DNA of 35,209 bases, taken from IMG/VR virus record IMGVR_UViG_3300025083_003558, positions 1 through 35,209 of that record, one strand, 5' to 3'. The translations under genes and the position numbers were made by a program. The number at the start of each line of letters is the position of its first letter. The first letter of the stretch is position 1. Positions 6,983 through 27,809 of the stretch are shown in pieces. The notes beneath the pieces were generated by a model that worked only from the letters and a program-made list of their open reading frames with translations, had not been told where the DNA came from and ran no database searches. This DNA is from a virus.

Positions 6983-8407
6983 ATGAGATTGGAAGATATC
7001 TACAGTAAGCAAATCCTCAATGAAGAGGTTGAAGTCGTATTCACCACAGCTGATGGTAAGAAGGAAACATTCACGTTGGATGACTCTTATGGTAAGGTTG
7101 TAGCAAGACAACTTAGATTGAATCAAGATCCTGGCTTTGATGAAAACATTGTATCTATCTTTACTCAAGGTGATTGGGTAAGTAAAGGTAAGGATCAAAA
7201 GAATGCTAAAAACAAATATAAGGAGATTGTTACTAAGTCTCAATATGATGAAGGTGTGTCTTTAACTGACTACCTTGCTAATAATAAAGAGACACTTCTT
7301 AAGCTTTCAGATTGCCCAGTTGGTAGAGTATTTAACTTTGCTCAAGCCATCGCAAGTAAGCTTCCAAGTGAGCTTGTAAATGAAGACTTGAATGTGTTTA
7401 TTCAGAATGTTCATTTAAATGTTATTCCAAAGGCTTCAACTGGAGTTGGTCTTGGTGAGTCTACCTTTTCAATATTTGGTACTGCTGCAAAAGGTACTAG
7501 TGGTGACCTTCAATGGGATGGTAGTGAGGTAGAGATTAAGACTAATGGACCTAATAAAGGTTCAGGTGCTATCTTAGGTGGTGATGGATACATTAACAAG
7601 ATTACAGATAGACTTGAAGCAAAGTCTGATTATGTTAACCTTAATGCTAACACATACGAGCGTTATAAAGATCAGCTCGTTGAATTAATCAACACTTATA
7701 CTTCACAAGGTAAAGAGCAAGCCCAAGCATTATACAACCAGTTTGTGAAGGGTTCTGATCAGCTTAAAAACATGCTTAAGAATGGTAAGATTACTGCTCT
7801 GCTTGATAATACTAAAGATGTTGAGGAGTTTATGAATACTGTATTGTCTTCCAGCTCCTTCCAACCTCTTAAGAAACAAACTGGCTCAGTTGGAGTTAAT
7901 CCAGATAACCTTCTTCCGAATAGATTACTTGCTCGTATTATGTACGAGATTAAGAAAAGTAGTGAGCTTGAAACTAACTTACCAGGTCAACTAGCTTCAC
8001 TGTTAGGTGCTGATGCTACTGTTGAAGATTATGTTAATGTATTCTCTGAGATGAAGACCTATGCTGATTCATCAGACATTACAGATCAGTTGAATGCATT
8101 CTTCCAGTCAAATAACTTTGCCGATTTTAATCCAAAGACAAATTATAACAACTTCCAACGATTGGTTGGTACAATTGCTATCATTTGCTATCAGGAGAAA
8201 GTTGGTTTTGACTATATTACCTCCGGTAATGATGATAATATGACAATGGCTATATTTGATACTAAGAATCCATCAATTACTAACCTATATAAACAGTTAG
8301 AAGATGTTCCTGAAGTGAGTTTTGACTTAAATATCGATACTTACGAGGGTGGATCATACAGATCACAGACAGTTATTGCTAAATCACCAAGGATCGTGCT
8401 GAAATAA
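6983..8407 (+). CDS. PD-(D/E)XK nuclease-like virion cargo protein
   Basis: 474 residues from the ATG at 6983; upstream TTG and GTG codons are in frame, but they leave no distance from the promoter. The N-terminus MRLEDIYSKQILNEE ends in L-N-E, a candidate prohead-protease site. Around residues 155-190 the sequence reads VGLGES, then GDLQWDG, then EVEIKTNG, giving E159, D175, E184 and K186, the spacing of a PD-(D/E)XK nuclease core (Asp on one strand, ExK on the next). A glycine-rich loop follows (GAILGGDGY). The C-terminal 270 residues are helical and unassigned. Similar proteins occur in T4-like marine phages without assigned function. Nuclease activity is inferred from motif only. Confidence 0.6.
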   Translation: MRLEDIYSKQILNEEVEVVFTTADGKKETFTLDDSYGKVVARQLRLNQDPGFDENIVSIFTQGDWVSKGKDQKNAKNKYKEIVTKSQYDEGVSLTDYLANNKETLLKLSDCPVGRVFNFAQAIASKLPSELVNEDLNVFIQNVHLNVIPKASTGVGLGESTFSIFGTAAKGTSGDLQWDGSEVEIKTNGPNKGSGAILGGDGYINKITDRLEAKSDYVNLNANTYERYKDQLVELINTYTSQGKEQAQALYNQFVKGSDQLKNMLKNGKITALLDNTKDVEEFMNTVLSSSSFQPLKKQTGSVGVNPDNLLPNRLLARIMYEIKKSSELETNLPGQLASLLGADATVEDYVNVFSEMKTYADSSDITDQLNAFFQSNNFADFNPKTNYNNFQRLVGTIAIICYQEKVGFDYITSGNDDNMTMAIFDTKNPSITNLYKQLEDVPEVSFDLNIDTYEGGSYRSQTVIAKSPRIVLK

Positions 8408-8409
8408 AA

Positions 8410-8425
8410 GGAACTCCGTTATAAT
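8410..8425 (+). promoter_or_regulatory. type II promoter, KWDG gene
   Basis: GGAACT, 4 bases, TATAAT; ATG at 8436 after 10 bases. Confidence 0.6.
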
Positions 8426-8435
8426 TAACATAGAA

Positions 8436-9653
8436 ATGAAGAACTTCAAAGAATATTACCAAGCTCGTACATTAATTAACGAGGCTAAAGCAAATACTCA
8501 CCTTACACACCTAGAAGAGCTTGTTCTCACTCAAGGTGAACGTGGATATGGCATTGCTCGTGGTATGGTTGCTGATCTTTTAAGTCATCTTCAAGGTAAA
8601 TCGAAGAGAAAGGTTAATACTTCAGTCAAATGGGACGGTGCTCCTGCTATTTTCTGTGGTAAGCACCCAGAAACAGGCCGCTTCTTCGTTGGAACCAAGT
8701 CAATCTTCAATAATGAACCTAAAATTAACTACACTGATGCAGATGTAGAGATGAATCATGGTCATGCTCCTGGTTTAGCTGATAAACTTAAGAAAGCTCT
8801 AAAGTATCTTCCTAAATTAGGTATCAAAGGTATCCTTCAAGGTGACTTTATGTTTGATTCTTCTTCTTTGAAGCCAATGATGGAAGATGGTAAGAAGCAT
8901 TTGACATTCAAGCCTAATACAATTCGTTACGCTGTTGAGTCTGACTCCGAGTTGGGTAAGGAGATTGGTAACTCTGTCTTTGGAATCGTCTTCCATACTG
9001 GTTATGCTGATCTAAAATCTCCACCTCAATACAATATCTCAGTTAAGAACCTCAAAAAGGTACCTGGTGTATGGGTTGATGATGCTGTCTTTACTGATAC
9101 TACCGGTACTGTTACCCTAGATCTTGATGAAGCTAAGCAAGTTAAAGATATGCTTAAGCTCGCTGACAAGGTTAAGGTTAACTACAAAGGTCTTCCTCTT
9201 GAGTTGCTCAACATTTATGCTAACTCTGAGATTAGAGAGGGTAAGTTCTTAGATGATGCTGAGACTTCATACAAAGGCTTCCTTAATTGGTTCAATGGTC
9301 GTAAGGAGAAGGCTATTGCCAAGCTTAAATCCAAGGCTGGTAAGATTAGATCAAATGAAGCCTACAGTAAGAAGATGGCTGAGATCAAAGCTGAAGAGCA
9401 GAACATCATTGCAGTGTTCAAAGTAAGTAAGTTGCTTGCTCAAGCTAAACAAATTTTCGTTAACAAGTATAACAACGCAGTATATAACACCAAGCACTTC
9501 TTAGATAGTGGTGATGGTACTCTTAAAGCTACTGCACCAGAAGGTTATGTAGCAGTATCAAGAGCGGGTGATGCAGTTAAGCTTGTTGACCGTTTGGAAT
9601 TCAGCCGCGCTAACTTCAGTGATGGTCAAACCTCAACACCAATCACTAAGTAA
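8436..9653 (+). CDS. ligase/nucleotidyltransferase-like protein with KxDG motif, candidate virion cargo
   Basis: 405 residues. The N-terminus MKNFKEYYQARTLINEA matches the T4 internal-protein leader in style and ends in I-N-E|A, the classic gp21 cut. At residues 65-68 a KWDG sequence, followed by AIFCG and FFVGTKS, looks like motif I (KxDG) of ATP-dependent DNA/RNA ligases and capping enzymes. LQGDFMF at 134-140 could be motif III and TFKPNTIRYAV part of the next strand. This family is widespread in T4-like marine phages, where I recall it as a domain of unknown function (DUF6267, from memory). The C-terminal 150 residues are lysine-rich and helical. Ligase-fold membership is inference. The stop overlaps the next ATG (TAATG). 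Confidence 0.62.
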   Translation: MKNFKEYYQARTLINEAKANTHLTHLEELVLTQGERGYGIARGMVADLLSHLQGKSKRKVNTSVKWDGAPAIFCGKHPETGRFFVGTKSIFNNEPKINYTDADVEMNHGHAPGLADKLKKALKYLPKLGIKGILQGDFMFDSSSLKPMMEDGKKHLTFKPNTIRYAVESDSELGKEIGNSVFGIVFHTGYADLKSPPQYNISVKNLKKVPGVWVDDAVFTDTTGTVTLDLDEAKQVKDMLKLADKVKVNYKGLPLELLNIYANSEIREGKFLDDAETSYKGFLNWFNGRKEKAIAKLKSKAGKIRSNEAYSKKMAEIKAEEQNIIAVFKVSKLLAQAKQIFVNKYNNAVYNTKHFLDSGDGTLKATAPEGYVAVSRAGDAVKLVDRLEFSRANFSDGQTSTPITK

Positions 9654-10195
9654 TGAAAACATTCAAAGAGTATTTCGAGAATCAAGAAGACACAGAAGCA
9701 GTAGCTCTTATGCCTGGTGGTTATAAGCCACCTACAAAGGGTCACTTCGGCGCTTTTAAATATATGCTCGAGGATGCTACAAGTGGTCTTATCGTAATTG
9801 GTAACAAGGATCGTGACGGTATTACAGCTGAGCAATCAAAAGCTATCTGGGAGATCTATGCCAAGTATATGGGTAAGCCAGTTGAAGTTGAGCTTGCTCC
9901 TATCTCTCCTGTTAAGTCAGTATATGACTATGCAGATGCTAATACAGAGAAGAAGATCATTGTAGGTGCTGGTGCCAAAGATGAAGATGTAAAGCGTTAT
10001 GCTTACTTTGAGAAGAATCCTGAGAAGTATCCATTTGTTCAAGTGATTAAGATACCTATTCAAGAGGATGGTATCTCAGGAACTAAGACAAGAGCCCTTA
10101 TTGCTTCTGACTTAGATAAGGCTATAGAATACTTTGTACCTAATGAGCTTTCAGAATCTGATAAAGATGCTGTAAAAGCAGTGCTCCAGGCATAA
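9653..10195 (+). CDS. TxGH-type nucleotidyltransferase, candidate virion cargo
   Basis: 180 residues. Opens with MKTFKEYFEN, the leader style of this cluster, although a clean hydrophobic-x-Glu cut site is not obvious. The body is a HIGH-superfamily nucleotidyltransferase: PPTKGHF at residues 26-32 gives the TxGH nucleotide-binding motif and ISGTKTR at 141-147 matches the ISxTxxR signature. These two motifs define NMN/pantetheine/glycerol-phosphate-type cytidylyl- and adenylyltransferases. The substrate cannot be told; NMN adenylyltransferase-like NAD metabolism is one option. Similar proteins occur in T4-like marine phages. It overlaps the preceding stop and is followed by a late promoter. 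Confidence 0.75.
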   Translation: MKTFKEYFENQEDTEAVALMPGGYKPPTKGHFGAFKYMLEDATSGLIVIGNKDRDGITAEQSKAIWEIYAKYMGKPVEVELAPISPVKSVYDYADANTEKKIIVGAGAKDEDVKRYAYFEKNPEKYPFVQVIKIPIQEDGISGTKTRALIASDLDKAIEYFVPNELSESDKDAVKAVLQA

Positions 10196-12543: not shown

Positions 12544-13290
12544 ATGAAGTTTACAAGCAATAAAGTAATTAACTTAGGTTCAGCTGCATTCCGTCAGTGG
12601 AGAAGTACTCATAGTCATTGTCAGTATATTCACGGCTATAACCTTACAGCTGATATTACATTTGAGGCTGATGAGCTTGATGAACGTAACTGGGTAGCAG
12701 ACTTTGGTGGTCTCAAAGATCTTAAGAAGACTTTGGAACATACATTTGATCATAAGTTAGTTGTTGCTGCAGATGACCCTCAGCTTGATCTCCTTAAGCA
12801 GCTTGATGAAGCAGGAGTAGCTCAAGTTGTAGTACTTCAAGCTGGTGTAGGGTGTGAGAGGTTTGCTGAGTTTGTTCTTAAAACTGCTGATACTTTCATT
12901 GATGAAGCTACTGATGGTCGTGTAAGAGTTAAGTCTGTTCAAATTAATGAGCATGATAAGAACTTTGCTACTTGTCATCGTGCTGACTATGCTCTTGAAG
13001 CTCTTATAAAAGCTTCGAAGAGTGAAGATGCTCTTGAAGTAACCATTACACAAAGTGAAACTAAACCATCAGAGATTGAAGCATTTGAAACTGGTGAGAA
13101 TCGTATCAATGTCATTGGCAAGAATGGTAATGATGGTGAGCATTATGATAAAGAAGGTCTTCAAGATGTTCATGGACCTATTGCTACTGAAGCAAAGGAA
13201 GAATTTAAAGGGTCCGCAGATCAAGCAGCTCCTGTTAAGCCATCTACTAAGACTAAAGGTGGTTGGTTTGAAGGTACTACTTGGGGCTAA
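12544..13290 (+). CDS. queD: QueD-like 6-carboxytetrahydropterin synthase
   Basis: Second step of 7-deazaguanine synthesis: dihydroneopterin triphosphate to 6-carboxy-5,6,7,8-tetrahydropterin. Residues 1-160 carry the 6-pyruvoyl-tetrahydropterin synthase fold: SAAFRQW, SHCQYIHGYN with the catalytic cysteine, VADFGGLK, FDHKLVV, and a late CHRADYALE. It belongs to the variant with AFRQW and HGY in place of the usual AAH and HGH, so the zinc ligands are not the textbook three histidines. Residues about 165-248 are an added acidic, low-complexity tail absent from ordinary QueD (about 120 residues). queE and folE2 lie 4-6 kb downstream with the same promoter type, supporting a shared pathway. Confidence 0.85.
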   Translation: MKFTSNKVINLGSAAFRQWRSTHSHCQYIHGYNLTADITFEADELDERNWVADFGGLKDLKKTLEHTFDHKLVVAADDPQLDLLKQLDEAGVAQVVVLQAGVGCERFAEFVLKTADTFIDEATDGRVRVKSVQINEHDKNFATCHRADYALEALIKASKSEDALEVTITQSETKPSEIEAFETGENRINVIGKNGNDGEHYDKEGLQDVHGPIATEAKEEFKGSADQAAPVKPSTKTKGGWFEGTTWG

Positions 13291-13680: not shown

Positions 13681-13755
13681 GCCTCCTTAGCTCAGTGGTA
13701 GAGCAGCTGATTTGTAATCAGCAGGTCGTCAGTTCGAATCTGACAGGAGGCTCCA
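13681..13755 (+). tRNA. tRNA-Thr (anticodon UGU), CCA encoded
   Basis: A full cloverleaf can be drawn: acceptor GCCTCCT pairs with AGGAGGC, the D arm carries AGCTCAGTGGTAGAGC, the anticodon arm GCTGA-TTTGTAA-TCAGC has TGT at 13713-13715, and the T arm has GTTCGAATC. The discriminator base is T, and the 3' CCA is encoded at 13753-13755. It reads ACA codons. There is no visible intron. It lies between two hairpins, in a short non-coding block of about 215 bases. Confidence 0.95.
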
Positions 13756-15032: not shown

Positions 15033-15590
15033 ATGAATATTTTTACAACTAACGATTGCCCCGTTATCTCTGCTCAAGAGATGTGTGATAAACATGTAGT
15101 CAAGATGATTGTTGAGTATGCTCAGCTAATGTCAACTGCTCATCGTGTTCTTGACGGTGAGCAGTATGAAGGTCGTACTAAAGCTAATCGTCGTATTAGG
15201 CGTTGGCTGCACCCAGATAAGAATATGGAAGAGGTTCTTTACAAAGCTTCTCATATCAACCACCCTTCTGGTCTATGGTGTCGCACCACTACTGCTAACT
15301 ATGAGTGGTTGTATAAGCATTTCTTGGCATCATGTAAAGAATATACTCTTCGTTATGGAAAGGTTCATGCTACTGAGACTAAGCTAGCTGAAGTATTCAA
15401 AACTCCGCCTAAGAACCTTCCCAAAGGTAAGCAGACAGAGTTTGCTGTAGCTATTGCTGCTAATCAGACATGTAGAAAGCTTCCTGGTTTCAATAAGCTA
15501 TCTGTTGTAGATAAGTACAAGCAATATATTCGTTGCGATAAGCCTTTTGCTAAATGGACTAAAAGAGATAAGCCTAGTTGGATTTACTAG
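15033..15590 (+). CDS. conserved phage protein of unknown function
   Basis: 185 residues. It matches a family I recognise from many phages, with the opening pattern of a short strand, two prolines/serines and then CDKHVVKMIVEYAQLMSTAHRVLDG (positions about 18-42, quoted here only by its start CDKHVVKM), followed by HINHPSGLWCRTT, NYEWLYKHF and a RYGKVH block. The conserved His/Cys/Trp positions suggest an enzyme, but the activity is unknown to me; some databases place such proteins near pyrimidine-dimer glycosylases, which I cannot confirm. Single-gene unit with a type II promoter. Confidence 0.7.
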   Translation: MNIFTTNDCPVISAQEMCDKHVVKMIVEYAQLMSTAHRVLDGEQYEGRTKANRRIRRWLHPDKNMEEVLYKASHINHPSGLWCRTTTANYEWLYKHFLASCKEYTLRYGKVHATETKLAEVFKTPPKNLPKGKQTEFAVAIAANQTCRKLPGFNKLSVVDKYKQYIRCDKPFAKWTKRDKPSWIY

Positions 15591-15618
15591 TTGATTTAAC
15601 ATTTTAATATACTAATAT
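15591..15618 (+). promoter_or_regulatory. type I promoter for the 15628 gene
   Basis: TTGATT directly after the preceding stop codon, 16 bases, TAATAT; ATG at 15628 after 9 bases. Confidence 0.55.
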
Positions 15619-15627
15619 ACCTTTGCG

Positions 15628-15846
15628 ATGATATCGAAATTAATTACATTGATCACTTTGATCTTTGGACCAGCAACAAACGCACCACCTCTTGGTAGTT
15701 ATGATGTACCACCTGCTACGTCAGGTAAAGGAGCTAAAGCAGTAATTCCAAAAGAGATTACTCCTAACCCTCTTGACTACCCACCAGGAATTGATCCTCC
15801 TTACTACCCACCAGTACCAACACCTCCACGTATTACAGAACTTTAA
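15628..15846 (+). CDS. small proline-rich protein, possibly exported
   Basis: 72 residues, not recognised. The first 14 residues (MISKLITLITLIFG) are hydrophobic after one lysine, which could be a short signal or anchor. The rest is strongly proline-rich, with YPP, DPPYYPP and PTPP runs, and unlikely to fold as a globular domain. It lies immediately upstream of the PEP-CTERM gene, 54 bases apart, and could be a partner in the same surface function. It has a type I promoter. Confidence 0.55.
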   Translation: MISKLITLITLIFGPATNAPPLGSYDVPPATSGKGAKAVIPKEITPNPLDYPPGIDPPYYPPVPTPPRITEL

Positions 15847-15900
15847 ACAATTTTCGGCCCCTGACGAAGACACAAACCAAAAAACAAAAACAAACAAAAA
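15847..15900 (+). promoter_or_regulatory. A/C-rich leader of the PEP-CTERM gene
   Basis: 54 bases with a GC-rich start (around CGGCCCCTGACG) and a final 30 bases of almost only A and C up to the ATG. No Shine-Dalgarno. This composition differs from every other gene start in the window and resembles untranslated leaders I associate with Verrucomicrobiota genes. Confidence 0.4.
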
Positions 15901-16548
15901 ATGAAAGTATTAAAACTACTACTAGCCGGCGCTCTTGCAGCGATTTCCTTCAACGTTCTAAATGCAGCAACTGTTCTCGTCCTTGACCAGCCGCATGTAA
16001 CCTCTGACCCATCTTATGAGATGACTCTTACATTTGAAGAGACTACTCGTGCAAATGAAGTTAAGGTAACATTCAAAGCTGTTAACGTTGGTTCCCATTA
16101 TGTTGATGGTGTTGCTCTTAACCTTCCAGAAGGAATTAACTACCAGCCAATTCAACTTGGTGGTGTTACTGCTGAAGAAGGTTTCTTCCAAGCACCTAAC
16201 ATGCTTAAGCAAAGGGACAACCTCATTGGACCTAATCAAGGTAATCAAGGCATCTTCGATATCGGAGCTGGATTTGCTACCGGTCGTAACAAGCCATCTA
16301 ATGTGCTCTTCACTACTGGTGACTCTGTTTCATTCCTCGTAACCAGCACACAAGGACCTCTTAGTGTAGAAGATCTTGCTGAGACATTCGATACTCCAAC
16401 TGATACTTGGGTCGCAGCTGCATCAGTTGTTACTGCTCCTGGATATTGTGCTTGGTACACCACTGATGGTGGTTCACCAGTTCCTGAGCCTTCATCTGCT
16501 CTCCTCGGACTACTTGGACTTGGGGCACTTGCTCGTCGTAAGCGATAA
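15901..16548 (+). CDS. secreted PEP-CTERM (exosortase-sorted) protein
   Basis: 215 residues. An N-terminal signal peptide (about residues 1-23: two lysines, a leucine/alanine core, LNAA cleavage region) leads to a beta-rich domain of about 165 residues with no recognised family. The last 23 residues are a textbook PEP-CTERM sorting signal: V-PEP-SS at about 194-199, a leucine/glycine hydrophobic stretch (ALLGLLGLGAL), and a terminal ARRKR. Such proteins are exported and then processed by a host exosortase in Gram-negative biofilm-forming bacteria; the form PEPSSALLGLLGLGAL is frequent in Verrucomicrobiota. No exosortase is in the window. The gene has its own A/C-rich leader and a strong terminator, as expected of a cassette taken from a host. 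Confidence 0.88.
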   Translation: MKVLKLLLAGALAAISFNVLNAATVLVLDQPHVTSDPSYEMTLTFEETTRANEVKVTFKAVNVGSHYVDGVALNLPEGINYQPIQLGGVTAEEGFFQAPNMLKQRDNLIGPNQGNQGIFDIGAGFATGRNKPSNVLFTTGDSVSFLVTSTQGPLSVEDLAETFDTPTDTWVAAASVVTAPGYCAWYTTDGGSPVPEPSSALLGLLGLGALARRKR

Positions 16549-16570
16549 TAATAAATAACAATAAACGAAA

Positions 16571-16602
16571 AGAGCCGCTACAATTGTAGCGGCTCTCTTT
16601 TT
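16571..16602. terminator. strong bidirectional terminator
   Basis: A perfect 26-base palindrome (16571-16596, arms AGAGCCGCTACAA and complement) followed by CTTTTT on the plus strand and preceded by an A-rich tract that serves the minus strand. It lies between the convergent PEP-CTERM gene and phoH. Its GC-rich stem contrasts with the AT-rich surroundings. Confidence 0.9.
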
Positions 16603-16610
16603 GTTTAAAT

Positions 16611-17336
16611 CTAACCGAGTCTCTCGCAGATGTATCTTAAGATCTTACTACGAACAATCTCTGAGTTACCAAACTTGAATGTGTAGATACCTTTATCCTC
16701 ACATTCATGGCTATCAAATCTATCAAAGACGTTTTTAAAACCTGATTGCTTAACATCAGATTGCTTTCCATCACCAAGTACAATGTACTTACTATTACGA
16801 CCAAAGCGTGTAAGGATGGTTGTTAGCTCCCCCTTAGTAAGGTTCTGAGCTTCATCAACAATAACGCATGTATTGTTAAATGTAAGACCACGTACAAAGT
16901 TAACAGGTATAGCGTCAATCAATCCTTTAGACTTAAGCATACCACATGTACCTGGACCACATAGCTCAGTTACCTTCTCAATAAGAGGCATCATATATGG
17001 GGAGAATTTATCATCAATCTCACCTGGAAGGGAACCTAAGCTCTTGTCTGCCGACTCAACTACTGATCGGATATAAACAATCTTCTCAACATCCTCGCTT
17101 TTTAGCATTTCAAGAGCGGCATATACAGCAATATATGTCTTAGCAGTTCCAGCAAGACCATCTACAAAAGTCATTTGAGTTGTTGCCTCATGAATTGTTT
17201 CATAGAAGTCACGATGTTTTGGTTTCATATAGAAAGGCTTTCTAATTTTGAAATCCATTAACCATCCTCCATTAAAGATATCTTCACCGATTTCCGGGTC
17301 AATATCCACAGCTTGTTTCTTAGAACGTCTGCTCAT
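16611..17336 (-). CDS. phoH: PhoH-like P-loop ATPase
   Basis: 241 residues. PhoH-family ATPase, common in marine phages, where it is often listed as a phosphate-starvation auxiliary gene although its biochemical job is unclear (an RNA-helicase or nuclease-accessory role is discussed). Walker A GLAGTAKT at residues 60-67 and Walker B VIVDEAQN about 100 residues later, with a downstream LGDGKQSD block, match the family. Only the ATPase domain is present, with no PIN or KH domain. It is convergent with the PEP-CTERM gene and divergent from queE. Confidence 0.92.
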   Translation of the reverse strand: MSRRSKKQAVDIDPEIGEDIFNGGWLMDFKIRKPFYMKPKHRDFYETIHEATTQMTFVDGLAGTAKTYIAVYAALEMLKSEDVEKIVYIRSVVESADKSLGSLPGEIDDKFSPYMMPLIEKVTELCGPGTCGMLKSKGLIDAIPVNFVRGLTFNNTCVIVDEAQNLTKGELTTILTRFGRNSKYIVLGDGKQSDVKQSGFKNVFDRFDSHECEDKGIYTFKFGNSEIVRSKILRYICERLG

Positions 17337-17442: not shown

Positions 17443-18201
17443 ATGGACTTAGATAAAGAAACTTTAATCCTGTCTGACGATAAAATCTTCTATACTATTG
17501 AAGGAGAAGGTGAATTCGTTGGTCAGCGATCCCTATTTATGAGGATGGCTATGTGCAACCTAACCTGTATTGGGTTTGCATCTGAAGACTCTCCTCACGG
17601 TTGTGACTCATTTATCTCTTGGAGTGTCAAGAATAAGATGACCTTTAACGAAATCTTTCAGATGATGGAAGATAATAACTGGATTGAGAAACTTGAGAAG
17701 GGTACAATCTGGAAACTAACTGGAGGTGAGCCTCTTATTCAGCAGAAAGCTCTACTCAAGCTTGTTGAAGCCTTTATTGAAAAGTATGGCTTTACTCCTA
17801 AGATTGACTTTGAAACCAATGCTACTCTCATGCCTGACCCACGTTGGAAGGAAGAGTTTGGTGCTACCTTTACTACTTCACCTAAGCTAACTACTAATGG
17901 TGATCCTGAGTCCAAGACTTATAAGCCTGAAGTACTCAGATATCATAAAGAGATTGGTTCAGGCTTTAAGTTTGTTATCAATGACCCTGAAGCAGATATC
18001 AAAGAGATCTGGAGTAAGTATGTTGAAGATGATGAAGGTATCAACGTAAGTCGTGATCGTATTTGGTTCATGCCTGTTGCTGGTTCTCGTAAGGAGCACA
18101 TTGAGAATGCTGCTGCTGTTGTAGAATATGCAAAGTCAATGCACGTTAACTTCTCAGCTCGACTTCACTTGTTAGTTTGGGATATGGCTCTCAAAGTTTA
18201 G
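17443..18201 (+). CDS. queE: QueE-like 7-carboxy-7-deazaguanine synthase (radical SAM)
   Basis: 252 residues. Radical SAM enzyme that contracts 6-carboxytetrahydropterin to 7-carboxy-7-deazaguanine (CDG). FYTIEGEGEFVGQRS at about residues 16-30 is the QueE signature, followed by the cluster cysteines C38, C42 and C54 and by LTGGEPL at about 94-100 (SAM binding). The cysteine spacing is CX3CX11C rather than CX3CX2C, a departure from typical radical SAM enzymes; other QueE subtypes also vary here. TSPK and INDP segments follow in the usual order. Promoter type shared with queD and folE2. Confidence 0.9.
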   Translation: MDLDKETLILSDDKIFYTIEGEGEFVGQRSLFMRMAMCNLTCIGFASEDSPHGCDSFISWSVKNKMTFNEIFQMMEDNNWIEKLEKGTIWKLTGGEPLIQQKALLKLVEAFIEKYGFTPKIDFETNATLMPDPRWKEEFGATFTTSPKLTTNGDPESKTYKPEVLRYHKEIGSGFKFVINDPEADIKEIWSKYVEDDEGINVSRDRIWFMPVAGSRKEHIENAAAVVEYAKSMHVNFSARLHLLVWDMALKV

Positions 18202-18248: not shown

Positions 18249-19289
18249 ATGTCAGATAACAAAAGTAACTACGAATGGCTCGGTGATGATGAACTCACCG
18301 GCGAAAAAGACGATATTGCTCGTGAGCTCATGGGCAGTGAATATGCTGAAGGTTATATTCCACCTTCACGTGTATATGATGATCAGCTAAAGACTGATAA
18401 GAAGTATATCTCTTCTCTTCCTGATCTTCAGAATGGACCTTCTAGCTTGATTCAAGGCGCTGCTGTACCTATTCAGCAGGTTGGTATTCACAACTTCCGC
18501 CTTCCTCTTACCTATAAGAAGCGTAATGGTGAGACTGTAACTCTTGAGACTTCAGTAACTGGTTCAGTTAGTCTTGAAGCTCATAAGAAGGGTATTAACA
18601 TGTCTCGTGTGATGCGTTCTTTCTACGATCACAAAGACGAAGTATTCTCTATTGATACTATTAAAGACGTTCTTGAGACTTATCGTAAGAACCTTGAGAC
18701 CTTTGACTCTCGTATCATGCTTAAGATTTCCTATCCTATCAAGCAGAAGAGCTTGCGTAGTGGACTTGAAGGCTATCAGTACTATGATGTTGTCTTCGAA
18801 GGTGACCTTACTAAAGAAGGTGAATTCAAGAAGTATATTCACTTTGACTTTGTTTACTCCTCCGCTTGCCCTTGCTCCTTCGAGCTTAGTGAGCATGCTA
18901 ATAAGTATCGTAACCGTGCTACTGTTCCTCACTCTCAGCGCTCTGTTGCTCGTGTAAGTGTTAAGTTTGAAGATATGCTCTGGGTAGAAGATCTTCAAGA
19001 GCTTTGCCTTGCTGCTCTTCAGACTGAGACTCAGGTAATGGTTAAGCGTGAAGACGAGCAAGCCTTTGCTGAGAAGAATGGTTCTTATCTTAAGTTTGTT
19101 GAAGATGCTGTTCGTCTTATGTTCGAAAAGCTTTCTGGTGATCAGCGAATTGTTGACTTTAAAGTCATTGCTTCGCATAACGAATCACTTCACAGTCACA
19201 ATGCTGTATCAGTAATCACTAAGGGTGTACCTGGTGGATTTAGTGCTGGTGTTGCTCGTGACGTATTTGAATCTACAGGGTTGCGTTAA
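18249..19289 (+). CDS. folE2: FolE2-type GTP cyclohydrolase I (type IB)
   Basis: 346 residues. Converts GTP to 7,8-dihydroneopterin triphosphate, the entry to folate and 7-deazaguanines. The family pattern is seen from SLPDLQN (56-62) and QVGIHNFRLPL, through TGSVSLEAHKKGINMSR (104-120), SACPCSFELS with Cys207 and Cys209, PHSQRS (227-232), to FVEDAVR and SLHSHNAV near the C-terminus. This is the zinc- or other-metal-using FolE2 family, not the usual phage FolE. I considered QueF because of length and neighbours, but the CPCS, HSQRS and HSHNA motifs are FolE2. The first 55 residues are an acidic extension. A hairpin terminator follows. Confidence 0.9.
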   Translation: MSDNKSNYEWLGDDELTGEKDDIARELMGSEYAEGYIPPSRVYDDQLKTDKKYISSLPDLQNGPSSLIQGAAVPIQQVGIHNFRLPLTYKKRNGETVTLETSVTGSVSLEAHKKGINMSRVMRSFYDHKDEVFSIDTIKDVLETYRKNLETFDSRIMLKISYPIKQKSLRSGLEGYQYYDVVFEGDLTKEGEFKKYIHFDFVYSSACPCSFELSEHANKYRNRATVPHSQRSVARVSVKFEDMLWVEDLQELCLAALQTETQVMVKREDEQAFAEKNGSYLKFVEDAVRLMFEKLSGDQRIVDFKVIASHNESLHSHNAVSVITKGVPGGFSAGVARDVFESTGLR

Positions 19290-21416: not shown

Positions 21417-22256
21417 ATGAGTAAGATTGGTGTTGGAGTTATTACCTGTGATCGTATGGATATGTACCATGTCTGTATGGAGTCCATCAGAGAGTCTTGG
21501 TGTGATGAGCTTGTTACTGTTGATGATGGCAAGAAGGACTATGTACTTGCTCCTAAGGGTGAGTATATTAAGACTGAGGGTGGTGAAGGTGTAGGTAGAG
21601 CTAAGAATAGAGCTCTTAAACACCTTATGGATAAAGGTTGTGACTATATTGTTCTTGTAGAAGATGATATGAAGTTCTCAGGTAACCTCTTTGCTGAGTA
21701 TGTTAAGGCATATGAGACAACAGGTATTCAGCACTTCATGTTTGCTTATCATGGACCAGCTAACAAAGCAGGTGTAAGTTATGGTAAGCCAGTTCCTCGC
21801 CTTGTATTTGACTATGGTCCATTTGATGAATGTCGTATTGCTCTCAATCAGCATTGTGTAGGTGCTGTTACATTCTATACACGTGAGTCTTTAGAGAAGG
21901 TTGGTCTATATGATGAGAACTTCACCAATGCATTTGAGCATGTTGATCACTCATATCAGCTAGCTAAAAATGGCTTCAGTACTCCTTATTGGTGGTGGGC
22001 TGACCTAGCTAACAGTCTTGATTTTGTACAAGAGCAGAAGTGTTCAGAAGACTCTTCAGCTATCAGGCCTCGTTCTGATTGGCAGTCTAATATTCAGACA
22101 GCTGCACAATACTTTATGAAAAAGAATAATGTATCACCAGTAAGGGTTCCAGATACCCCAACCCGAGAGGTTGTAGATATCATTAAGAAGTACAGAAAGT
22201 TAATTGATGAAAAAAGAAAATCTAAAAGAAAAGCTGACGATCCTAATCGCGGCTAA
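21417..22256 (+). CDS. family 2-type glycosyltransferase
   Basis: 279 residues with a GT-A fold pattern: a first strand GVGVITCDR, a second with ELVTVDDG, the GVGRAKNRAL helix, and VLVEDDMKF containing the metal-binding DxD equivalent (EDD) at about 80. A later GAVTFYTRE and HVDHSYQLAKNG region fits acceptor-side elements of GT2 enzymes. Cytoplasmic, no membrane helix. Sugar and acceptor unknown. First gene of a five-gene stretch of glycosyltransferase and sugar-nucleotide genes; it overlaps the next gene by 50 bases. Confidence 0.78.
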   Translation: MSKIGVGVITCDRMDMYHVCMESIRESWCDELVTVDDGKKDYVLAPKGEYIKTEGGEGVGRAKNRALKHLMDKGCDYIVLVEDDMKFSGNLFAEYVKAYETTGIQHFMFAYHGPANKAGVSYGKPVPRLVFDYGPFDECRIALNQHCVGAVTFYTRESLEKVGLYDENFTNAFEHVDHSYQLAKNGFSTPYWWWADLANSLDFVQEQKCSEDSSAIRPRSDWQSNIQTAAQYFMKKNNVSPVRVPDTPTREVVDIIKKYRKLIDEKRKSKRKADDPNRG

Positions 22257-22977
22257 GGTTGAGCATGAAGATAGGTTGCGGAATATACGATCGACTTTGT
22301 CGTATCTCCGCTACCACTTTGATGTCAACATTATCATTAGCGAGCAAGATACGTCGAGTAAGCTGCACGACATGTGCAAAGCTTTCCACTGTCGACATAT
22401 TTATATTGAGACCGATGAGTTTTTTAACAGGCAGCGAGGTGTTAACCTTGCAGCAAGAGAGGCTACTACTCCGGTCATTGCTCATTATGACGCTGATATA
22501 CTCTTAAGACCGCAGCAAATTATTGGTGCTACTGAAGCTATTATTAGTGGAAGAGCGCAAATGGTTTACCCGTATGATGGTCACTTCTATGATGTACCAG
22601 AGAAGTTTTTTGATACTATTAATGAGACAAAAAATCTTACTAAGGTACCTCTAGAAGATTGTACTCTCTTTAATCCTCATTCAGTTGGTGGTGTAGTAAT
22701 GTTTGATAGAGAGCATTACTGGAAGTGTGGAGGAGCTAATGAATCATTTAAGAGTGTTGGTTATGAGGATAACGAGATTAATGAGCGCTTTAGAAAGCTT
22801 GGTACAAAGATTATGCGCACTCAATGGCCACTATGGCACTTGACTCATGCACGTGGTGAAACATCTTATAACCATAATCCACATATCGAACTTAACAAGA
22901 GTCTCTATTTGGAGATTGAGAGAATGTCTCCTGAGCAACTTAAAGCTCATGTCGATACTTGGGACTGGCACAAATGA
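22207..22977 (+). CDS. galactosyltransferase-like family 2 glycosyltransferase
   Basis: 256 residues from the ATG at 22207 (a TTG just before it is in frame). GT-A features: TILIAAKVEHEDRLRNI, a VNIIISEQD strand, and VIAHYDADILL with a DAD metal motif at about residues 91-95. The C-terminal half has GGVVMFDREHYWKCGGANESFKSVGYEDNEINER, which is very like the acceptor region of beta-1,4-galactosyltransferase-type GTs (GG..N..F.G.G.ED.E...R). It overlaps the preceding gene by 50 bases and the following one by 4. Confidence 0.8.
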   Translation: MKKENLKEKLTILIAAKVEHEDRLRNIRSTLSYLRYHFDVNIIISEQDTSSKLHDMCKAFHCRHIYIETDEFFNRQRGVNLAAREATTPVIAHYDADILLRPQQIIGATEAIISGRAQMVYPYDGHFYDVPEKFFDTINETKNLTKVPLEDCTLFNPHSVGGVVMFDREHYWKCGGANESFKSVGYEDNEINERFRKLGTKIMRTQWPLWHLTHARGETSYNHNPHIELNKSLYLEIERMSPEQLKAHVDTWDWHK

Positions 22978-23771
22978 TTACTTCTTCAAGAATAGGTAGG
23001 TATGGTAATACCTGCAATGCCATGTTTCAATTTGCTGCTGTAGTTGGTATGGCTAAAAAGACTGGTCATGGATATGTTATTCCTAAGCATGAAACATACT
23101 ATGAGCCAAGCTATGGGTGTATGAACACATCTATATTTGATGGGTTTGATATTACAGCACCTACATGTAATCTAGGGTCCTTTAAAGAGGTAGAGTTTCC
23201 TTTTGAGTATAAAGATATTCTTGTTGATGACTTTACAGACATGGTAGGCTTCTTTCAGTCTGAGAAGTACTTTGAAGATGCTGAACAGGAAATTAAAGAT
23301 CAGTTTAAGATTAAAGAAGTTCATAAGCAAGTTGTAGATGCTAAAATTAAATCAGGTGAATATCCTGACCCTCTACACTCTACTTCCTTACACTTAAGGT
23401 TAGGTGACTACACTCGTAAGAGAAATTATCACCCTGCAGTACCTGTACAATATTGGTCACAAGCTATTGAAGCAACTCATTCTGACAATGTTGTAATCTT
23501 TTCTGATGATGTTAAACAAGCGAGATCAATGTTTGGCAATGATTCTCGTTTGACATATTCTACTGAAAAGAACCCCTTCCCAGCCCTCTACCACATGTCT
23601 CTGTGCAGGAATCATATCATCTGTAACAGTACCTTTGGGTGGTGGGGAGCTAAATTAGGTGAGTGGAATAACCCAGTTGATAAAGTTGTGGTAGCACCTA
23701 AAATATGGTTCGGACCAGCACATGAGTTTAGCTCAAAAGATATAATTCCTGAACGTTGGATAAAGTTATGA
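22974..23771 (+). CDS. GT11-type fucosyltransferase (alpha-1,2-like)
   Basis: 265 residues; the ATG at 22974 overlaps the previous stop (ATGA). GT11 hallmarks are visible: GRYGNTCNAMFQFA at 8-21 (family pattern GxxGNxxFQ), LHLRLGDY at about 143-150 (HxRxGDY, donor binding), and NSTFGWWGAKLGEW near 219-232 (the NSTFSWWxA motif), ending in a P.W.g family-like tail. Members transfer L-fucose from GDP-fucose. In this cluster a related GDP-deoxysugar such as GDP-colitose is also possible. Ends in an ATGA overlap with the next gene. Confidence 0.85.
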   Translation: MITSSRIGRYGNTCNAMFQFAAVVGMAKKTGHGYVIPKHETYYEPSYGCMNTSIFDGFDITAPTCNLGSFKEVEFPFEYKDILVDDFTDMVGFFQSEKYFEDAEQEIKDQFKIKEVHKQVVDAKIKSGEYPDPLHSTSLHLRLGDYTRKRNYHPAVPVQYWSQAIEATHSDNVVIFSDDVKQARSMFGNDSRLTYSTEKNPFPALYHMSLCRNHIICNSTFGWWGAKLGEWNNPVDKVVVAPKIWFGPAHEFSSKDIIPERWIKL

Positions 23772-24574
23772 AGATATTTTTACAAGACTCAGCATTCGCT
23801 CATTGTGAGTTCTCTAACAACCCTTTACCTGTTAAGCAAAGAACAGATAAAGTTACTTGGGATAGAACTGATAACTATACTGAGGAAGATATTGTTGTAT
23901 GGACTGATGTAGACATTCCAAAGGCTCTTAATCGTAAGGGTCCTAACATTGCTTGGATGATTGAAGCTATGCCTTACCATCAGCAGATTTATAATTTTGT
24001 TGCAAGCAATCATGACAAGTTTGAGCAGATTTGGACTCACGATCAACAGATGGTAGATGCTTGCCCTAATGCTAAACTTCTTCCTTTTGGTGGTTGTTGG
24101 ATTGATAAGTGGGATTGGAAGATGCATAAGAAGACTAAAGACTTTTCTATCATTGCATCTGCTCATAGACACTTACCAGGACATAGACTTAGACATCAGA
24201 TTGTAGCTGGTACTCAAGGTAAAGTAGATCTATGGGGTAGAGGTTACAAAGAGATGGCAGATAAGATTGAAGGTCTTAAAGACTATCAGTATACTTTCTG
24301 CATTGAGAACTTTCGAAAGGATTATTGGTTTACAGAAAAGCTTATTGACTGCTTTGTAACTGGTACCCTTCCAATCTATTGGGGTTGTCCTTCAATTGGA
24401 GACTTGTTTAATGTTGATGGTATGCTATGCTTTGAAGACATTAAAGAGCTACCAGAACTACTCAAAGGATGTACTCCTGAATATTATGAGAGTAAGAAAG
24501 AAGCTCTTAAAGAGAACTTTGAACTTGCTAAGAAATATAGATTAGCAGAGTTAACTATCCCAAGCCTTTTATAG
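23768..24574 (+). CDS. GT10-type fucosyltransferase-like protein
   Basis: 268 residues from the ATG at 23768, overlapping the previous stop. The C-terminal donor domain has YTFCIENFRKDYWFTEKL followed by TGTLPIYWG (about 175-206), which is the signature of alpha-1,3/1,4-fucosyltransferases (family pattern FxxxFENS...YxTEK...PVxxG). The N-terminal half, with a WMIEAMPYHQ segment and FGGCWIDKWDW, is the acceptor side and is divergent. The donor would be GDP-fucose or a close analogue. It is the last gene of this overlapping run; a type II promoter starts the next unit immediately. Confidence 0.8.
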   Translation: MKIFLQDSAFAHCEFSNNPLPVKQRTDKVTWDRTDNYTEEDIVVWTDVDIPKALNRKGPNIAWMIEAMPYHQQIYNFVASNHDKFEQIWTHDQQMVDACPNAKLLPFGGCWIDKWDWKMHKKTKDFSIIASAHRHLPGHRLRHQIVAGTQGKVDLWGRGYKEMADKIEGLKDYQYTFCIENFRKDYWFTEKLIDCFVTGTLPIYWGCPSIGDLFNVDGMLCFEDIKELPELLKGCTPEYYESKKEALKENFELAKKYRLAELTIPSLL

Positions 24575-24590
24575 GGAACACTGATATAAT
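24575..24590 (+). promoter_or_regulatory. type II promoter, fcl/colC unit
   Basis: GGAACA (one mismatch), 4 bases, TATAAT; ATG at 24597 after 6 bases. It begins directly after the preceding stop. Confidence 0.6.
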
Positions 24591-24596
24591 AATATT

Positions 24597-25484
24597 ATGA
24601 AGATTTTAGTTACAGGTGGAACCGGAATGGTTGGGCAACACTTGCAAGAGTATTTGCCTGAAGCTACGTTTGTTGGTTCAACGGATTGCGATCTTAGAGA
24701 TAAGGTTGCTGTTAGAAGACTGTTTAACAATAAATATGATACAGTAATTCACCTTGCTGCAAAGGTTGGAGGTATTCAAGATAACATTGCCAACCCTTTA
24801 GAGTTTCTTGAGGATAACCTCATTATGAATACTAACGTGGTTAAGGCCGCGTACGAGAGTGGTGTTAAAAAGTTCATTGGTATTGGAAGCACATGTGTAT
24901 ACCCAGATACCTTACCTAAAATGTACTACCCAATGACAGAAGACATGCTCCATATTGGTGCACCAACCCCTACAAACTTTGGCTATGGTTATGCAAAGAG
25001 AATGCTTGCTGTACATCTTGAGACCATACGTAAGAGTAAAGGTTTAGATTACTTCACAATCTTTCCAAGCAACTTGTATAGTGAGTATGATAACTTTGAA
25101 GATGGTACAAAAGCACACTTTGTTACTGCATTGTTGATGAAAATAAAGAACTCTGATGGAACTGTTCCTCTTATGGGAACTGGAACTCCTATTCGTCAGT
25201 TTATTCATGCTGAAGATCTTGCAAAGGTTATCTGCGGTTGTCTTTATAGAGAAGTTAAGCAAGACTTTAATGTTTGTGATGATAGTAGATCAATTAAGAA
25301 CATAGCAGAAGCAGCTCTTAAAGCAACTAACAACGAGCATCTTAAGTTAGTGTTTGATCAGTTCTTTAAGAATGATGGTCAATTTAGAAAAGATTGCTCA
25401 AATGAAAAAATGATGAAGCTCTTTCCTGACTTTGTGTTTTTATCGCTTGAAGAAGGTCTAAAAAGAGTATATAATAAGTTATGA
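24597..25484 (+). CDS. GDP-L-fucose synthase / GDP-colitose synthase-like epimerase-reductase
   Basis: 295 residues, short-chain dehydrogenase. Nucleotide-binding TGGTGMVGQHL at 6-16; VIHLAAKVGGIQDN and the GSTCVYP catalytic block (Ser and Cys of the epimerase site); YGYAKRML containing the Tyr-x3-Lys pair; PSNLYSEYDNF; a KAHFV histidine; and GSGTP-like TGTGTPIRQFIH. This matches Fcl/WcaG, which epimerises and reduces GDP-4-keto-6-deoxymannose to GDP-L-fucose. ColC (GDP-L-colitose synthase) is a homologue, and the downstream ColD makes that product equally likely. The stop overlaps the next small gene. Confidence 0.85.
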   Translation: MKILVTGGTGMVGQHLQEYLPEATFVGSTDCDLRDKVAVRRLFNNKYDTVIHLAAKVGGIQDNIANPLEFLEDNLIMNTNVVKAAYESGVKKFIGIGSTCVYPDTLPKMYYPMTEDMLHIGAPTPTNFGYGYAKRMLAVHLETIRKSKGLDYFTIFPSNLYSEYDNFEDGTKAHFVTALLMKIKNSDGTVPLMGTGTPIRQFIHAEDLAKVICGCLYREVKQDFNVCDDSRSIKNIAEAALKATNNEHLKLVFDQFFKNDGQFRKDCSNEKMMKLFPDFVFLSLEEGLKRVYNKL

Positions 25485-25621
25485 GTGGAAGAGAATGGAA
25501 GTATAATACCTTTAAATTGAGTAAGGGTGAAGCAGTTTTGTTTGCTTTAGCACTACCTTTCATTTTTATTATCGGTACGTTTGGTGCGGCTATTTCAGCA
25601 CTCTTTAGTAAGAAGAGTTGA
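25481..25621 (+). CDS. 46-residue single-span membrane peptide
   Basis: A small gene starting at the ATG that overlaps the preceding stop (ATGA) and ending TGA at 25619-25621. It encodes a basic N-terminus (MSGREWKYNTFKLSKGEA), one hydrophobic helix of about 22 residues (VLFALALPFIFIIGTFGAA) and a lysine-rich C-terminus (SALFSKKS). Coupling to the epimerase gene and the start of a promoter just after it argue for a real gene. Function unknown; a membrane anchor or regulator of the sugar enzymes is possible. Confidence 0.6.
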   Translation: MSGREWKYNTFKLSKGEAVLFALALPFIFIIGTFGAAISALFSKKS

Positions 25622-25630
25622 TTTTCATAA

Positions 25631-25646
25631 GGAACTATGCTATAAT
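25631..25646 (+). promoter_or_regulatory. type II promoter, colD-gmd unit
   Basis: GGAACT, 4 bases, TATAAT, TAGGT and the ATG at 25652. Also has TTGATT 17 bases before TATAAT, so this copy combines both signals. Confidence 0.66.
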
Positions 25647-25651
25647 TAGGT

Positions 25652-26818
25652 ATGGCAATCAACTTAGTTTCTGATACTATCGACCGCGAAGACGCGTGTG
25701 GTATTATCAACTGGCTCGATCAAAAAGAGCTCCCCCAACTCACTAAAGGCCCTTTGACTAAAGAGTATGAGGCAAAGTTTTCTAACTGGCTTGGTACTAA
25801 GCACTCTGTATTTGTTAATAGTGGATCCTCTGCTATCCTTTTAGGTCTTACTGCTCTTAAGTTTGGAGGTAAGCTTAAGAATAATAAAATTGTTGTACCT
25901 GATTTGAGTTGGGCTACTGATGTTAGTACACCTCTTATTCTTGGCATGGATACTTTTCTTGTTGATTGTAACTTTGGAGACCTTTCAGCTGATCTCAACC
26001 ATCTCGAACAATTATTTAAAGAAGAGAGACCAGCAGCCTTTATTCTTGTATCAGTACTCGGACTTGTACCTGATATGGATCGTATTCTTGATCTTTGCAA
26101 GACTTACGATGTTCTATTAATTGAAGATACTTGTGAGAGTATGGGTTCAGAACATCATGGACAGAAGCTTGGTACCTTTGGATGTATGAGTTTCTTCTCC
26201 ACTTATTTTGGTCATCACATTTCTACTATTGAAGGTGGTATGGTATGTACTAATGATAAAGAGATTAATGATCTACTTCTTATGACTCGTTCACATGGTT
26301 GGGATAGAGATCTTGATCCGGAGACTGCAAAGAAGCATGCTGAAGAGGAAGGTGTTAGTGACTTTGATAGGTTGTTTACTTTCTATACTCCTGGGCTTAA
26401 TGTTAGGGCTACAGACCTTCAAGCAAAGATTGGTCTTAATCAAGTCGATAAGATTGATAAATTTTCGAAGATTCGTAATGAGAACTTTCTTCACTACAAT
26501 AAAAGATTAGCTTGGGCGAAGGATCTTTTATTTAGACCAGAACAATTGACTGGAGATTTTGTTTCTAACTTTTGCTATCCAGTTGTTAGTGAAAGTCGTG
26601 ATGATATTGTAAAGGAGCTTAAGGAAAATGATATCGCATGCAGACCTCTTATTGCAGGAGCGTTGAGTAAGAGTCCAATGTGGAAGAGATTTGGCGGTAT
26701 GGAAGTAAACAACTTTAAAGCATCTTTAGTTCATAAGTTCGGCTTTTATGTACCTAATCATCAGGGTATGACTACCGAGGATGTAGATAAGGTTTGCGAT
26801 ATTATTCTAAAGTATTAA
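25652..26818 (+). CDS. colD: ColD-like GDP-4-keto-6-deoxymannose 3-dehydratase (DegT/DnrJ/EryC1 fold)
   Basis: 388 residues, PLP enzyme of the sugar aminotransferase fold. In aminotransferases the motif S-x-x-x-x-K carries the PLP lysine; here STYFGHHISTIEGG has His188/His189 instead. E. coli ColD (also 388 residues) uses His188 in the same place to remove the 3-hydroxyl of GDP-4-keto-6-deoxymannose, so the replacement points to a 3-dehydratase, not to the perosamine synthase type. VNSGSSA at about 55-61 and LIEDTCESMG at about 156-165 are the PLP phosphate and Asp sites. The neighbours Gmd (substrate maker) and the Fcl/ColC homologue complete a route to GDP-L-colitose. Confidence 0.85.
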   Translation: MAINLVSDTIDREDACGIINWLDQKELPQLTKGPLTKEYEAKFSNWLGTKHSVFVNSGSSAILLGLTALKFGGKLKNNKIVVPDLSWATDVSTPLILGMDTFLVDCNFGDLSADLNHLEQLFKEERPAAFILVSVLGLVPDMDRILDLCKTYDVLLIEDTCESMGSEHHGQKLGTFGCMSFFSTYFGHHISTIEGGMVCTNDKEINDLLLMTRSHGWDRDLDPETAKKHAEEEGVSDFDRLFTFYTPGLNVRATDLQAKIGLNQVDKIDKFSKIRNENFLHYNKRLAWAKDLLFRPEQLTGDFVSNFCYPVVSESRDDIVKELKENDIACRPLIAGALSKSPMWKRFGGMEVNNFKASLVHKFGFYVPNHQGMTTEDVDKVCDIILKY

Positions 26819-26819
26819 A

Positions 26820-27809
26820 ATGAAAACAGCATTAATTACAGGTATTAACGGGCAAGATGGATCTTATCTTGCAGAGCTTCTTCTAGAGAAGGGGTATGAG
26901 GTATGGGGTACTATTCGTCGTAACTCATCTCCAGAGTATAACACTACCCGTGTTGATCATATTTTTAATCGAGTTAATCTCGTCTATGCTGACTTAACTG
27001 ATATGTCTTCTCTTGTAAGTGTATTACAGAAGTCAAAGCCAGATGAGATTTATAATCTTGCTGCTCAGTCTCATGTACGTGTTAGTTTCGATGCTCCAAT
27101 TTATACAGCTGAAGCAACTGGACTCGGTACACTTAACTTACTTGAAGCTATTCGATTAACTTGCCCTAAAGCTCGAGTCTATCAAGCTTCTTCGAGTGAG
27201 ATGTTTGGTAATACTATTGATGAAGATGGTTTCCAGAGAGAGACTACTCAACTCAATCCAGTAAGTCCTTATGGGTGTGCAAAAGTATTCTCTTACAACA
27301 TTTGCAACAACTACAAGAATAGTTATAACATGCATATTAGTAATGGTATTCTTTTCAATCACGAATCTCCAAGACGCGGTATTAACTTTGTAACTAACAA
27401 GGTTGTTAATGGTGCAGTAGATATTAAGCAAGGTCGTAAGAAGACTTTGACTCTTGGTAACCTTGCAGCAAGTCGTGATTGGGGTCATGCTAAAGACTAC
27501 GTTAAAGCAATGTGGTTAATGCTTCAACAAGACGAGCCTGATAACTATGTTTGCTCTACTGGTATATCGCATACAGTTCAAGAACTTGTTGATTATACTT
27601 TCGGCATTATGGGTGTTAATACTGATCTTGTTAAAACAGATTTACAGTTTGAACGTCCAGAAGAGCTTGAGCATCTTAAAGGTGACTCTACAAAGCTCAG
27701 AACAAAGTTAGGTTGGAAACCAACTTATACATTTGAAACAATGCTTGATGAGATGATCTTTGTAGCTGCAAATAAGCGTAACAAAGATGTTGATACCAAC
27801 AAGTTCTAG
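26820..27809 (+). CDS. gmd: GDP-mannose 4,6-dehydratase
   Basis: 329 residues. Converts GDP-mannose to GDP-4-keto-6-deoxymannose, the shared precursor of fucose, colitose, rhamnose and perosamine. Clear Gmd motifs: ALITGINGQDGSYLAELLLE (start of the Rossmann fold), YNLAAQSHVRVSF, ASSSEMFGN, a SPYGCAK catalytic Tyr-x3-Lys, NHESPRRGINFVT, and LGNLAASRDWGHAKDYV. Starts one base after the colD stop and is certainly co-transcribed with it. It is shorter than E. coli Gmd (373 residues), mostly through loop trimming. Confidence 0.95.
   Translation: MKTALITGINGQDGSYLAELLLEKGYEVWGTIRRNSSPEYNTTRVDHIFNRVNLVYADLTDMSSLVSVLQKSKPDEIYNLAAQSHVRVSFDAPIYTAEATGLGTLNLLEAIRLTCPKARVYQASSSEMFGNTIDEDGFQRETTQLNPVSPYGCAKVFSYNICNNYKNSYNMHISNGILFNHESPRRGINFVTNKVVNGAVDIKQGRKKTLTLGNLAASRDWGHAKDYVKAMWLMLQQDEPDNYVCSTGISHTVQELVDYTFGIMGVNTDLVKTDLQFERPEELEHLKGDSTKLRTKLGWKPTYTFETMLDEMIFVAANKRNKDVDTNKF

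Follow-up and report, generated by a model that had tools for sequence, protein, structure and literature searches.

A PEP-CTERM protein gene within an accessory module of an uncultured T4-like phage clade

The DNA analyzed here (the window) is a virus record of 35,209 bases from the IMG/VR collection. It carries genes for a T4-type portal protein, a tail sheath stabilizer, an SbcC-like protein and a helicase (PHROG families phrog_213, phrog_227, phrog_77, and phrog_16), and also encodes PhoH, a DUF932 protein and a pyrimidine-dimer-glycosylase-like protein (Pfam). T4-like phages are the top matches of the portal protein among named phages, at approximately 30% identity, and the window phage is thus placed by its sequence in an uncultured T4-like lineage. 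Between the glycosylase-like gene and phoH lies an accessory module that contains a gene for a PEP-CTERM protein; the features of the locus are as follows.

15033–15590, plus strand: pyrimidine-dimer-glycosylase-like ORF, the upstream neighbor (PF03013, 29 bits; cut-off 23)
15591–16610, plus strand: accessory module of 1,020 bp, GC 0.42, made up of a small secreted-looking ORF, a leader, the PEP-CTERM gene and a terminator
15628–15846, plus strand: proline-rich ORF of 72 aa with a signal-peptide-like start and no cysteine, the upstream partner
15847–15900, plus strand: A/C-rich leader, recognizable in contig L004, for which weak hairpin folding is predicted (−4.7 and −2.9 kcal/mol)
15901–16548, plus strand: PEP-CTERM protein of 215 aa, above the cut-offs of PF07589 and TIGR02595, with four full-length relatives in virus contigs
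15901–15966, plus strand: signal peptide, residues 1–22, assigned by inspection
15967–16470, plus strand: body, residues 23–190, a beta-sandwich predicted with modest confidence
16477–16545, plus strand: PEP-CTERM tail with PEP motif, hydrophobic helix and RRKR (PF07589, 29.4 bits in a six-frame search)
16568–16599, both strands: bidirectional intrinsic terminator, probably common to phoH (matches on both strands)
16611–17336, minus strand: PhoH, the convergent downstream neighbor (PF02562, E = 9.1e-49)

In some bacteria the PEP-CTERM tail is a sorting signal that directs proteins to the cell surface. PEP-CTERM proteins are defined, in the available text of PMC3237569, by a motif, a helix and a basic cluster, always with a signal peptide and always in a genome that encodes an exosortase. 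In a protein search the final 23 residues of the window protein (193–215) score 25.4 bits with PF07589, for which the cut-off is 20.7, and TIGR02595 matches the tail at 16.4 bits, barely above its cut-off of 16. The N-terminus, MKVLKLLLAGALAAISFNVLNA, is signal-peptide-like by inspection, as it is in all three distinct sequences of the protein, and the tripartite tail (PEPS, hydrophobic stretch, RRKR) is likewise present in all three, with PEPS, ALLGL and RRKR invariant. A helix is placed at residues 200–210 in a low-confidence whole-protein model (pLDDT 50) that was otherwise set aside. The architecture of an exosortase substrate, which the preliminary description had read from the sequence, is therefore upheld by a putative signal peptide (by inspection) and a tail above the cut-offs of both families. 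None of the five phage records of the clade (the window and L002–L005, all fragments) encodes a recognizable exosortase, so processing would need the enzyme of the host.

A secreted protein with a beta-rich periplasmic body and a C-terminal helix might alternatively span the envelope and act in lysis with no exosortase involved, in the manner of a u-spanin; u-spanins are one-piece envelope-spanning proteins that bear a lipoprotein signal with a cysteine. The overall layout is compatible with such a role, and a second small secreted-looking ORF lies directly upstream, but all three distinct sequences lack a cysteine in residues 1–30, and the missing lipobox and lipoprotein anchor argue against a spanin. 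This reading also leaves the PEP motif unexplained, and searches with Pfam, NCBIfam/TIGRFAM and PHROG recognized no adjacent lysis gene; we regard it as improbable, at roughly one chance in ten.

The full protein is encoded in four more IMG/VR contigs, at protein identities of 100% (L002), 100% (L003), 91% (L004), and 79% (L005), and the same four alone were recovered whichever part of the protein served as bait (4/29, 4/59, 4/31, and 4/41 candidate stretches in four scans). L002 is collinear with the window along all of its 13,618 bases at 99.7% identity and L003 along 8,763 bases at 99.8%. The worry that this interval is an assembly chimera or host contamination, for which it speaks that tblastn with the whole protein found no relative among named phages, is answered by five contigs at three levels of divergence that carry the gene at the same location. 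With the frame intact and collinear in five virus contigs, a chimera and a random reading frame are both excluded to the extent that sequence permits, and the probability that we leave to a chimera or contamination is close to nil.

Pairwise dN/dS of the PEP-CTERM gene is about 0.12 between the window and L004 and 0.27 between the window and L005, compared with 0.06 and 0.04, respectively, for PhoH. The gene is thus, on these substitution ratios, under purifying selection, yet evolving faster than PhoH, a pace that would suit a gene of accessory or surface function but also a weakly constrained one. By part, amino acid identity to L004 and L005 is 82 and 50% in the signal peptide, the fastest-changing part, which retains its hydrophobic pattern; 92 and 84% in the body, the best-conserved part; and 88 and 72% in the tail. 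These values bear on the proposal that the protein is a decoy, in which an abundant substrate would occupy the host exosortase and leave host PEP-CTERM surface proteins unfinished, altering the surface or weakening defense, and in which the body need not act. An intact tail joined to a body of no recognizable function is in keeping with a decoy, as are the leader and terminator of the module, which suggest good expression, and a fraction of C-ending codons that ranks second among the 43 window genes (counted over 40 codons only). However, the body is better conserved than the tail, which indicates that the body matters and argues against a pure decoy; we consider this explanation unlikely, at about one chance in eight.

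Among the best 80 of 295 PhoH-relative loci from virus contigs, PF07589 is above cut-off in four (4/45 and 0/35 in two batches), which are L002–L005; the window is also positive. Weak matches in L039, L040, and L063 (10.0–10.6 bits, below cut-off) were rejected, and the L039 frame has no PEP motif. In 13 sister contigs (PhoH identity 78–80%) the glycosylase-like ORF abuts or overlaps the end of phoH and the module is absent; for more distant contigs, absence was taken from a synteny table. An exact gene junction in 13 sisters points to gain of the 1,020-bp module where the two convergent genes meet, loss elsewhere being the less likely course. The proline-rich ORF of the module is also present in L002 and L003 (100%) and L004 (85%), whereas L005 begins too late to tell, and it has no family match in Pfam, NCBIfam/TIGRFAM, or PHROG. 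Between this ORF and the leader, L004 has approximately 160 extra bases (7787–8000 of that contig), in which there are two very short frames, each of about 25–28 codons and hydrophobic in appearance.

The A/C-rich leader noted in the preliminary description exists at 15847–15900; L005 starts 3′ of the leader region, and the comparison is therefore with L004 only. Upstream of the module there is no T4-type late promoter TATAAATA, a sequence with a single copy in the window, at 22398 on the minus strand. Downstream of the gene, a 26-nt perfect palindrome (16571–16596) lies within a predicted fold (16565–16605) of −23.1 kcal/mol (z = −6.4 against shuffles). L004 and L005 have the stem unchanged but differ in the loop. 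U-tracts flank the hairpin on both strands, and it is located between convergent genes, so it probably ends transcription of phoH as well. The terminator had been described as belonging to the gene itself; the palindrome and its fold bear this out as far as a terminator goes, but a hairpin that is terminator-like on both strands is probably not private to the PEP-CTERM gene.

No relative of the body was recovered outside the clade in the collections searched. Searches by tblastn with the body against plasmids gave no match, and a pattern scan of the bacterial genome collection returned 193 stretches but no relatives. A first profile (A1) matched in 23 of 27 genomes with the signal coming from the tail, and ten of the matched regions, when inspected, gave no convincing alignment of the body. 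A body profile (A2), which was built on three sequences and is accordingly of low sensitivity, gave one weak match of 34 residues (E = 0.0068) in 386 Verrucomicrobiales genomes and, at E ≤ 0.1, short pieces in 5/387 Verrucomicrobiota and 7/294 Planctomycetota (the Verrucomicrobiales and Verrucomicrobiota samples partly overlap). The matches in all three samples were rejected as chance; all are short pieces, and three have internal stops. With the body alone, NCBIfam gave only LruC_dom in L005 (14.9 bits; cut-off 36), the best match among PDB sequences had an E-value of 0.12, and PHROG had no match to the PEP-CTERM protein. A supposed likeness to a widespread type of PEP-CTERM body was dropped, as no search bore it out.

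The AlphaFold2 model of the body is a beta-sandwich (mean pLDDT 60.7, pTM 0.64). Foldseek searches of the model gave a best E-value of 0.013 (an adaptin ear) and nothing at or below 0.001 in PDB or BFVD, and the best VIA match had a Z of 7.2 (1gyv; rmsd 3.0, 105 aligned). In this model, the likeness is no more than the common Ig-like arrangement, and Ig-like appendage domains are no closer than many other folds. The absence of a body homologue in the bacteria searched leaves no function to transfer, nor does it favor origin as a host cassette. Of that earlier proposal, insertion of the module is supported by its absence from the 13 sisters, but capture from the host is not: the body has no convincing relative in the bacteria searched, and neither codon usage nor GC content of the gene gives a clearly foreign signal. 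Only the tail looks host-like, and the body is perhaps of the phage's own making.

The tail offers a clue to the host. A search of one genome per species, covering 84,980 prokaryote species, for VPEPSxALLGLxGL translated back into DNA yielded 29 stretches, all C-terminal and within 28 residues of a stop; 26 are in Verrucomicrobiales-type records and three in planctomycetes (two Verrucomicrobiales genomes supply two stretches each). The 26 come from records titled Verrucomicrobiales, Verrucomicrobiaceae, Akkermansiaceae, Akkermansia, Roseibacillus, Luteolibacter, and Prosthecobacter; lineage was checked for Roseibacillus and Adhaeretor, and the other assignments follow record titles. This pattern had been modelled on the window tail, and neither of the other two distinct tails fits its extended form, the L004 tail having IPEPS and the L005 tail an S in place of a G. 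Exosortase was above the Pfam cut-off in 48 of 57 Verrucomicrobiales genomes (an even draw). The host is probably of Verrucomicrobiota type, a link made through a short motif; to our knowledge, few phages are known for Verrucomicrobiota. Verrucomicrobiales PEP-CTERM substrates (VPEPS-x-ALLG-L-x-GL ... RRRR) share with the window protein the architecture and spacing of the tail, a signal peptide (by inspection in the window protein) and a similar length, whereas the window protein comes from a lytic-type phage and its body, as far as tested, is unrelated beyond the tail. Of the 23 PEP-CTERM proteins predicted for Akkermansia muciniphila, mass spectrometry detected nine, and the processing of such proteins by exosortase is described as little characterized (available text of PMC4960237).

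The window gene is one conserved case among several. In the virus collection, the spacing of the window tail (VPEPSxALLG) occurs in six stretches, three of the window clade and three chance frames. A commoner spacing, one residue longer, occurs in 27 stretches: 12 were set down to chance, and the remaining 15 lie at the C-terminal end of plausible ORFs, L101 and L123 encoding an identical protein. Nine of ten such proteins, a set without L108, passed the PF07589 cut-off, and L106 fell short by 0.1 bit. Terminase, portal or major head proteins were recognized with PHROGs (10 proteins) in five of the seven contigs tested (L098, L099, L100, L108, and L110; the test left out L097, L101, L106, L107, L111, L118, and L123); L105 had no PHROG match, and L116 matched only methyltransferase-type and unknown families. 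With at least six unrelated phage contigs that carry virion genes and this second motif variant, phage-borne PEP-CTERM genes are, by these sequence comparisons, recurrent, and the window gene is not unique. Like the window gene, those of L098, L099, L100, L108, L110, and L112 encode a PEP-CTERM tail, lie in contigs with virion genes and, except in L112, have an apparent signal peptide; unlike in the window protein, their tails have the longer spacing, their bodies are different and the phages are unrelated.

In L112, a 5.5-kb virus contig with further secreted-looking ORFs, the ORF at 618–2147 (minus strand) joins a tape-measure domain (PF20155, 72.9 bits) to a PEP-CTERM tail above the Pfam cut-off. 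By this precedent the window protein could be virion-associated, its body displayed on the particle or injected and its tail a membrane-binding end, perhaps as in the L112 protein. However, the window gene sits apart from the virion genes, amid genes of nucleotide metabolism, and its product has a signal peptide (by inspection) and lacks a PHROG match, which makes this reading quite improbable, more so than either the decoy or the spanin. Two further PEP-CTERM proteins, in L100 (3984–4586, minus strand) and L110 (13535–14182, plus strand), are 55% identical and encoded beside packaging or head genes; the terminases of these contigs are of different families (phrog_9 and phrog_979), and this PEP-CTERM family may move between phages.

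A full-text literature search, judged by titles and the starts of abstracts and with subscription papers outside it, found no paper with a phage PEP-CTERM protein as its subject. The statement that no phage had been described as coding for one holds in this sense, but it needs qualification by the unrelated IMG/VR cases above and by 13 virus-borne proteins of the TIGR03118 family from Yellowstone, reported in the available text of PMC11003980 as horizontally acquired and as having a putative exosortase-interaction C-terminus; these are likewise virus-borne but of a different family. The PEP-CTERM genes in the available text of PMC12642866 are those of Microcystis.

In bacteria, PEP-CTERM proteins are associated with extracellular polymer and flocs, and one such protein takes part in floc formation (available text of PMC9850573). 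PepA-type flocculation proteins (NF033554) have a PEP-CTERM tail in common with the window protein, but the whole-length alignment is weak (16.9 bits, far below the cut-off of 80) and the body alone gives no match.

In the reading that we prefer, by a slight balance of probability, the module is accessory cargo of one T4-like clade, and the host exosortase sends the body to the envelope or matrix, altering the surface of the infected cell. Export and sorting are proposed because of the signal peptide and PEP-CTERM architecture. During infection, the Sec system of the host would export the 215-residue protein. The PEP tail would then be recognized by an exosortase of the host, probably a Verrucomicrobiota-type enzyme, which would cut off the C-terminal helix, and the beta-rich body would reach the cell envelope or extracellular matrix. 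There, by analogy, the body most likely would change what is displayed outward, masking a receptor or the matrix so that competing phages are excluded, or altering aggregation; surface masking or superinfection exclusion as the benefit to the phage is a guess. Comparable proteins are T5 Llp and phi80 Cor, superinfection-exclusion proteins of small size that phages encode and that reach the envelope, as is predicted for the window protein; these, however, are lipoproteins or associated with the outer membrane and have no exosortase tail. A broader and more tentative proposal, to which we give somewhat less than even odds, is that phages of exosortase-bearing hosts have, many times and each on its own, taken up the PEP-CTERM/exosortase route of the host as a means of putting phage proteins on the infected cell, the window cargo having been kept through T4-like divergence with a body that is perhaps phage-made. 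If the preferred reading is right, viruses make use of the exosortase system, of which the purpose is poorly understood to date; the phage cargo would be a small, testable exosortase substrate, and for uncultured phages the type of tail would hint at the host, in this case Verrucomicrobiota.

Several other features of these phages were observed. A fucose-type glycan cluster at 21417–27809 of the window encodes GT2-, GT7-, GT11-, and GT10-like glycosyltransferases, an epimerase, a DegT aminotransferase and a GDP-mannose dehydratase; a link between it and the PEP-CTERM gene was rejected because sister phages that lack the PEP-CTERM gene share the cluster. QueD-, QueE-, and FolE2-like genes and DUF366 are located at 12544–13290, 17443–18201, 18249–19289, and 27830–28411; the set, in which the QueE label and the role given to DUF366 are our presumption, resembles the 7-deazaguanine pathway and perhaps serves DNA modification. 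A tRNA-Thr gene (anticodon TGT) is at 13681–13755 on the plus strand. In L026, adjoining ORFs on the minus strand (about 8190–8770 and 8880–9950) have almost identical initial 34 residues (MAKPFKSEFDLMAEAYATV...), and this repeated N-terminal unit is present in further relatives too.
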